Of a DNA stretch of 49,203 nt, positions 23,405-45,266 are shown piece by piece; the stretch's first letter is position 1, and the number at the start of each line of letters is the position of its first letter. The notes below the pieces were generated by a model. The model worked only from the letters and a program-made list of their open reading frames with translations. It did no database searches and was not told the origin of the DNA. Source of the stretch: Hominimerdicola alba 8 (lineage in GTDB: Bacteria; Bacillota; Clostridia; Oscillospirales; Ruminococcaceae); assembly GCF_000178155.2 (NCBI RefSeq), contig NZ_ADKM02000135.1, forward strand, positions 1-49,203. Direction: 5' to 3'. A program made the position numbers and the translations under genes.

Positions 23405-23507
23405 TATAGCAATCCAACTTTTTAAATTCACAAAATCCAGTCGCAAAAGCTGGGATTTATGGGTTTTGTGACTGGATTTTGTCTGAATTTTAAGGCGGAT
23501 TGCTATA
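23405..23507. mobile_element. MITE-like 99-bp palindromic element, copy 1
   Basis: The element TAGCAATCC...GGATTGCTA (23407-23505) is 99 bp, has terminal inverted repeats and folds along its whole length into an imperfect hairpin. TA is duplicated on both sides, the target pattern of IS630/Tc1-mariner elements. A copy with 96 of 99 identical bases lies at 44196-44294. It has no coding capacity and sits in the gap between the XRE operon and the DtxR-type gene. Confidence 0.85.
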
Positions 23508-43892: not shown

Positions 43893-44077
43893 TTTTATTC
43901 CTCCTGAAATCTGTACATTATAAACTTGTGATACCCGCATTCCTAAAATTGTGTTAATGGGACGGTCATATCATCAAATACAGCCTATACATTATAGCAC
44001 ACTTTTGAAGATTTGTCACCTGTTTTTTCAAAAAAGCGTTCTTCACAGGATAAGACGGGTACCCATACAGAAATTTT

Positions 44078-44107
44078 GCCCCGAAGCGTTACAAAGTGCT
44101 TCGGGGC
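44078..44107 (-). terminator. Hairpin after the broken DUF6440 gene
   Basis: GCCCCGAAGC and GCTTCGGGGC form a 10-bp perfect stem with a 10-nt loop. On the minus strand AAAATTT follows, a weak T run. It lies 15 nt past the ancestral stop codon. Confidence 0.65.
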
Positions 44108-44122
44108 TTAGATAAGAATTTA

Positions 44123-44400
44123 TCACTTTGCATATTTGGGGTCAAGTAAAGGTTTTCCGTCCTTATCGACCGGAACAGTGAGTCCTCCTGCATTATAGCG
44201 ATACAACTTTTTAAATTCACAAAATCCGGTCGCAAAAGCTGGGATTTATGGGTTTTGTGACTGGATTTTGTCTGAATTTTAAGGCGGATTGCTATAGTCC
44301 GGTGAGCCGATAAATATTGGACACCCGTTTCTTTGTCAACAATTATACGAGCACCCTGCACTGACCCATTCTTTTCCACAAATTCAAACCTGTTTTCCAT
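44123..44400 (-). pseudogene. DUF6440-like gene interrupted by a MITE-like element
   Basis: The 5' part encodes MENRFEFVEKNGSVQGARII and continues to GVQYLSAHRT; the 3' part encodes AGGLTVPVDKDGKPLLDPKY and ends AK-stop. Together they match the short DUF6440 pattern (VDKETGV.YL then AGGLT...D.DGKP). Removing 101 bp (the 99-bp element plus one TA) leaves 177 bp, exactly 58 codons plus stop, and joins T-N-A in frame. In its present state translation runs through the element in a wrong frame afterwards. A consensus promoter lies 10 nt before the ATG, so the mRNA would be nearly leaderless. Confidence 0.88.
44194..44296. mobile_element. MITE-like 99-bp palindromic element, copy 2, inside a gene
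   Basis: The element at 44196-44294 is 99 bp and differs from copy 1 at three positions, all in the left half. TA is repeated at both ends (44194-44195 and 44295-44296). It interrupts the DUF6440-like gene between an Arg-Thr and an Asn-Ala junction. No transposase is nearby; an IS630/Tc1-mariner type enzyme elsewhere in the genome is inferred from the TA target. Confidence 0.9.
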
Positions 44401-44410
44401 GTCAGTAAAA

Positions 44411-44439
44411 ATTATAGCACAGCGTTGCTTCTTTGTCAA
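44411..44439 (-). promoter_or_regulatory. Consensus promoter of the broken DUF6440 gene
   Basis: On the minus strand TTGACA and TATAAT, both perfect consensus, with a 17-bp spacer. The ATG at 44400 is only 10 nt past the -10, leaving no room for a ribosome site. Confidence 0.8.
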
Positions 44440-44521
44440 TATCAAAGAAAAAAGCCACAGCACTCCTGACTTTGCATCAGAAATACTATGGCATAATGCG
44501 CTGTGCTTATGTCCGAAAATT

Positions 44522-45102: not shown

Positions 45103-45266
45103 ATATGACTATCCCTTTAGCACACCGGCTGAAAATGCGGTAAACAAAAGGATAATTGATCGCAGGATATCTTTCCCCTGCCAGCGGCGGGGGAAAGATA
45201 TCCGCCAACCACTTTAAGTTTTGCTAGACCGCTGTTTTTTGTGGTGTGTCAGCGGGGTAAGCATAT
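45103..45266 (+). repeat. Palindromic repeat family 1, copy E
   Basis: Starts ATATGACTATCCCTTTAGC and ends GTGTCAGCGGGGTAAGCATA. Core arms ATATCTTTCCCC and GGGGAAAGATAT form the central hairpin. It lies between the promoter and the glpK start. Confidence 0.9.

Follow-up and report, generated by a model that had tools for sequence, protein, structure and literature searches.

Correia elements of Neisseria use TA as a target and have a repeat beginning with TATAG. They are small MITEs described as present in more than 120 copies (PMC10969869), and although the host is unrelated they resemble the element reported here, by description and not by sequence. RUP of Streptococcus pneumoniae is a 107-bp hairpin with 110 copies in one genome that disrupts genes, including by insertions recorded in pneumococcus, nests with other repeats and is linked to IS630-Spn1 (PMC3049150); this likeness is again one of description rather than sequence and, in contrast to RUP, no IS630 partner was found for our element in the 29 genomes of the genus sampled here. 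The enterobacterial units RU-1, RU-2 and RU-3 (ERIC and others; 127, 168 and 103 bp) are MITE-like and sometimes lie inside reading frames, where the cases described were fused in frame and kept (PMC2759123), whereas the insertion studied here, also compared by description, shifts the frame and cuts the domain. MITEPsy1 of Pseudomonas syringae (100 nt) is described as targeting CTAG or YTAA, but it makes a 4-nt duplication, has other ends and is linked to ISPsy2 (PMC3189936), while our element has a 2-nt TA duplication and TATAGC ends. The IS630 / Tc1-mariner group (ISY100, IS630) shares the TA target and its duplication, ISY100 being reported to insert almost only at TA (PMC2170065); our element differs in carrying no transposase gene, and no family member scored over cut-off in the genus sample.

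The locus lies in a window (the whole stretch of DNA analysed) of 49,203 nucleotides. The initial annotation had proposed that a 99-bp element splits a DUF6440 gene there, and this is borne out, as both halves match PF20037 and the gene is unbroken in relatives:

44194-44296, no strand: MITE copy with both TA copies, 103 bp, its boundaries fixed by uninterrupted alleles in genomes G018, G025 and G004
44196-44294, no strand: MITE unit between the TAs, 99 bp
44194-44195, no strand: left TA target copy; a single TA at that place in the three uninterrupted alleles
44295-44296, no strand: right TA target copy; a single TA at that place in the three uninterrupted alleles
44295-44400, minus strand: upstream (5') piece of the DUF6440 gene, codons 1-35 plus one base of codon 36, its first; PF20037 positions 1-33, E 5.9e-9
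44123-44195, minus strand: downstream (3') piece of the DUF6440 gene, ending at the stop; PF20037 positions 36-53, E 1.8e-4
44089-44400, minus strand: frame open today, which starts at the gene's ATG, crosses the element and continues in the wrong frame until a stop; 103 aa

Exact removal of 101 bp (99 bp plus one TA) from the 278-bp stretch 44123-44400 restores the frame, as had been predicted: 177 bp remain, that is 58 codons plus stop, and the flanks joined at one TA read MENRFEF...GVQYLSAHRTNAGGLTVPVDKDGKPLLDPKYAK followed by the stop. The insertion target in the gene is a CATTAGTC site. Against the PF20037 profile, the 5' part scored 36.0 bits (cut-off 26.5) and the 3' part 21.6 bits, on its own below the curated cut-off; in the 103-aa frame the DUF6440 match is confined to the first part. 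The gene product is probably lost, since beyond residue 35 the reading frame is a different one and the final third of the domain is missing. Among the neighbouring genes, RadA and glycerol kinase scored over their NCBIfam cut-offs and TspO below its own, and the small gene beside radA had no NCBIfam match. DUF6440 was not named in any paper found in our literature search.

We then looked for empty sites in the 29 genus genomes, the source genome (G000) included, with a 1408-bp query covering the locus. In G018, contig C4 matched the query at positions 1-599 and 699-1408, with an overlap of 2 bp corresponding to the TA, and contigs C303 of G025 and C90 of G004 likewise gave two abutting matches with a 2-bp overlap. 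When joined at one TA, the flanks matched G018, G025 and G004 over 92, 90 and 89 bp (95, 83 and 81% identity) with no net length difference; the empty site reads CACCGGACTAATGCAGG in G018 and CACTGGACTAATGTGGG in G025 and G004, and the three uninterrupted proteins align over the same 58 codons. The single TA of these alleles confirms the ends and the TA target assigned to the element from the window alone, and the uninterrupted 58-codon gene, sought in relatives at the radA-tspO locus, was found in all three, with the order radA, adjoining small gene, tspO and glpK kept in G018 (95.1, 97.2, 96.3 and 97.3% identity, respectively). Synteny was seen in G018 alone: the G025 match is on a short contig, and G004 has the gene and the match to the radA-adjoining small gene on different contigs. 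The opposite outcome, a 99-bp segment conserved in homologous loci, was also looked for, and none of the full-length DUF6440 matches listed from the 29 genomes carries it. The insertion had been called recent; it does postdate the split from G018 (neighbouring genes 95-97% identical), but this age is only relative. With 3 mismatches to the consensus over its 103 positions, the copy is not among the 21 of 71 distinct copies that match it perfectly.

The element reads TA-TAGC...GCTA-TA at 44194-44296, a net gain of 101 bp (99 bp and one TA). Its ends are inverted repeats, paired across 72 copy records, and it folds into a hairpin: as single-stranded DNA with 4 flanking bases per side, the fold reached -24.1 kcal/mol, whereas shuffled sequences averaged -8.0 (z -7.0; 0 of 200 shuffles equally stable). 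The inner part of this hairpin is formed by two arms:

44219-44237, no strand: inner hairpin arm, 89% complementary to 44253-44271, with covariation
44253-44271, no strand: second side of the inner hairpin arm, partner of 44219-44237

It is short (103 bp), without a transposase gene, multi-copy and bounded by a target duplication, and empty-site alleles exist in three relatives at the DUF6440 site and for three further copies, all of which are features of a MITE. In the genome, the pattern TATAGC(N85-115)GCTATA occurs at 146 places versus 54 for a reversed control, and of the first 50 listed, 44 proved to be the element, each 103 bp long, which extrapolates to a copy number of ~130. The element is not a chance feature, because dozens of near-identical copies occur in the same genome. 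One of them lies elsewhere in the window:

23405-23507, no strand: another copy of the MITE, without any difference from the consensus built on the examined copies

Element matches were found in 8 of the 29 genus genomes, G000 included. In G018, contigs C82, C85, C87, C143 and C149 end inside the MITE; the repeat thus breaks assemblies, and the copy number in this genome may be underestimated. At locus L127 (1400-2500), small genes lie next to one complete MITE and one half copy that have a common flank on one side, an arrangement due to segmental duplication or rearrangement.

Target preference was determined on the 72 copy records, which are the first or best listed and not a random draw, and which represent 71 distinct copies (one was recorded twice at overlapping contig ends). 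A YTAR target was present in 58 of the 71 distinct copies, or 59 of the 72 records (CTAA 23, TTAG 22, CTAG 9, TTAA 5), where 6.4 would be expected from the NTAN frequencies of the same flanks. With the single TA in the empty alleles, this corresponds to the duplicated TA and CTAG-like preference of IS630/Tc1-mariner elements. Joined flanks (45 bp per side) were then compared with six relatives for 30 of the 59 copies with suitable flanks, taking the best 40 candidates per genome, a setting in which misses say little: 4 of the 30 copies (numbers 0, 6, 7 and 9) had an insertion-free match spanning the junction and differing in length by no more than 2 bp, the flanks of copy 17 lie in a second repeat and match many MITE-free copies of that repeat, and the other copies had no spanning match among those listed or flanks that are themselves repeats. 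The element seems to be mainly intergenic. Other potential gene breaks, scored as an open frame of at least 90 aa that runs through the joined site and covers 15 aa either side of it, appeared in 6 of 72 records, most of which look spurious by eye; the DUF6440 gene itself is too short for this test.

Beyond the genus, at least 10 of 297 family genomes matched the element (best 3 candidates per genome), including G000 and one same-genus genome. G123, from another genus, carries full-length copies at 92% and 89%, and in G216, G138 and G204, where the matches are partial, they can be extended to hairpins ~101-115 bp long with different outer ends. In a 23-row alignment, 29 named pairs were 94.7% paired, with two-sided changes in 82 cells versus 25.1 in shuffles and a covariation score of 0.361 versus 0.124 (0 of 500 shuffles as high in either case); less favourably, two-sided change affected 13 of the 29 pairs (reached by 126 of 500 shuffles) and 31 further pair types were seen (reached by 30 of 500). 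Among the copies of G000 itself there is little variation in the arms, with most pairs changing rarely or not at all. A comparison of the two groups of rows shows 85% likeness in the centre and 54% in the arms, against 90 and 89% within the first group (G123 rows included); the other-genus relatives were detected through their central part, which inflates this apparent core conservation.

We consider it highly probable that a non-autonomous hairpin MITE of the genus inserted into the 58-codon DUF6440 gene with duplication of TA and was moved in trans by an IS630-type enzyme. The insertion with its exact ends, the broken frame, the empty alleles, the high copy number and the YTAR bias are seen directly, whereas the mode of movement is an inference: a DDE transposase of Tc1/mariner/IS630 type would recognise the terminal repeats TATAGCRATCC and move the element by cut-and-paste. 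Such chemistry is indicated by the 2-bp TA duplication at YTAR (PMC2170065), and IS630 itself, going by the title of Tenzen and Ohtsubo (1991), reportedly prefers TA within CTAG. In the 29 genus genomes, no protein scored over cut-off for PF13358 or NF033545: PF13358 gave matches at E <= 0.001 in 2 genomes, both below cut-off and neither at a locus that reads as IS-like, and NF033545 gave weak matches in all 29 at E <= 1 (best 49 bits vs 100). This absence could reflect the draft state of the assemblies, loss of the enzyme following a burst, or a transposase that goes unrecognised.

An autonomous element with the same ends was not found either, using ends-only patterns that are strict by design on draft assemblies. 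One scan of 10 genomes, whose patterns (like those of the genome-contig scan) deliberately cover only some of the possible sequences, returned 30 places in 3 genomes, which were MITE copies, some of them rearranged, plus a small number of single ends; a second scan of 10 genomes returned 22 places in 4 genomes, each within a known MITE or a shortened copy. At six loci (L156, L157, L163, L164, L167 and L177) one end is joined to other DNA, with no second end within about 3 kb and no transposase-like protein, by eye, among the two largest frames. The ends-only pattern matched three stretches in the genome contigs database (two from uncultured Ruminococcus and one from Rheinheimera, the latter with no second end in its 8 kb and with its two largest frames downstream of the end resembling a two-component pair by eye) and none in viral contigs. 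Half copies were considered as a hidden IS and rejected, since L127 holds a rearranged half copy and L171 and L173 have the second repeat inside the MITE. Phages and plasmids contained no match to the element, and viral contigs none to its core pattern.

A DDE transposase from a different family, such as an IS5-type enzyme, could have made the same insertion, although we regard this as unlikely. The IS5-type group prefers YTAR. Among five genomes searched, DDE_Tnp_1 (PF01609) genes occur at two places in G000, three in G018 and one in G008; two of these loci (L192 and L193) look IS5-like, and the one in G008 has TTAG on its flanks, consistent with YTAR. A published list moreover enters as 'IS5?' a MITE of 100 nt whose target is CTAG or YTAA (PMC3189936). 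Yet the ends of the IS5-like IS, GGCAACACCGC, are unrelated to TATAGC, so that L192 and L193 were rejected as partners (the other four DDE_Tnp_1 loci were checked for TATAGC ends alone), and the copy in G008 has a 4-bp TTAG on both sides where our element has a 2-bp TA against three uninterrupted alleles. It appears less likely still that the MITE is not a plain IS deletion derivative but part of an undescribed lineage spread over several genera, with arms that co-evolved (13 of 29 pairs), a nearly fixed centre around CAAAACCCATADAYSCNAGCTTTTGC and no transposase partner found in the sample; in that case the host, or a mobilising protein not yet recognised, would read the hairpin and its apical core directly. 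That the hairpin survives two-sided changes and keeps a similar centre across genera could also suggest a structured RNA or regulatory hairpin kept for host benefit and not a mobile parasite, but we find this very improbable: the target duplication and empty sites demonstrate mobility, no Rfam family reached its gathering score in 5 loci, and an E-value search around the window copy returned 2 weak miRNA look-alikes. The covariation shows that the arms are kept matched and not that an RNA functions, since the terminal repeats of any transposon would co-vary. A start codon lies within 100 bp in 19 of 72 records versus 51 of 308 control sites (which included non-intergenic DNA), a comparison with no clear link, and a promoter or start-codon role was set aside because enrichment near start codons is not clear.

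A different question is whether the element itself inactivated the gene, which has a predicted upstream signal:

44411-44439, minus strand: promoter-like TTGACA - 17 bp - TATAAT upstream of the DUF6440 gene, predicted from sequence

Compared with G018, G000 lacks 29 bp between this site and the coding start, the likely ribosome-binding site among them, and in the window the ATG is ~10 bp from the -10-like box (44400-44411); G025 and G004 have G-rich purine stretches ahead of ATG. A transcript from the promoter-like site would thus be almost leaderless, so the insertion may not be the gene's only defect, and the gene may have been failing beforehand. We therefore hold it possible, if somewhat doubtful, that a decaying pseudogene was already present when the element arrived, the insertion being a passenger and not the cause of the loss. 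G000 and G018 differ at 6 of 177 nt, all six amino-acid changing, and five of these changes are derived on the intact G018 side, so that constraint looks weak, but six of six is too few for significance; a DUF6440 match over cut-off is present in only 12 of 29 genus genomes (G000 included), and the gene may be dispensable in the clade. Against prior decay, the 58-codon frame is intact apart from the element, with one derived substitution in G000.

Other repeats lie near the locus. A second repeat family at 45105-45264 has arms ATGACTATCCC..CACAC, a G+C-rich central hairpin and ATATAATTAT on both sides, and its arms match 9 times in the window versus 0.01 expected. Nesting occurs in both directions: L171 and L173 have this repeat within a MITE copy, and MITE copies lie within the repeat. 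The tspO-glpK gap measures 278 bp here and 108 bp in G018, where the 45105-45264 repeat therefore seems absent. Stretches 44399-44496, which includes a terminator-like hairpin upstream of the promoter-like site, and 44051-44107, a CCCCGAAGC...GCTTCGGGG hairpin, match many places in the genus and look like recurrent terminator-like repeats.

Altogether, the insertion of a MITE in a small gene is real and exactly defined, and it is ordinary in kind, with RUP as a precedent. It pins down the precise ends and target site of a very abundant Ruminococcus MITE, of which we found no description in the literature searched (MITE terms with Ruminococcus or Ruminococcaceae returned no paper). Near-identical copies and other-genus relatives, with no partner transposase found, raise a testable question, namely what moves this MITE. 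The locus also provides a clean pair of empty and filled sites; such pairs calibrate annotation, in which split genes are called as two ORFs, and show how such genomes lose small genes.
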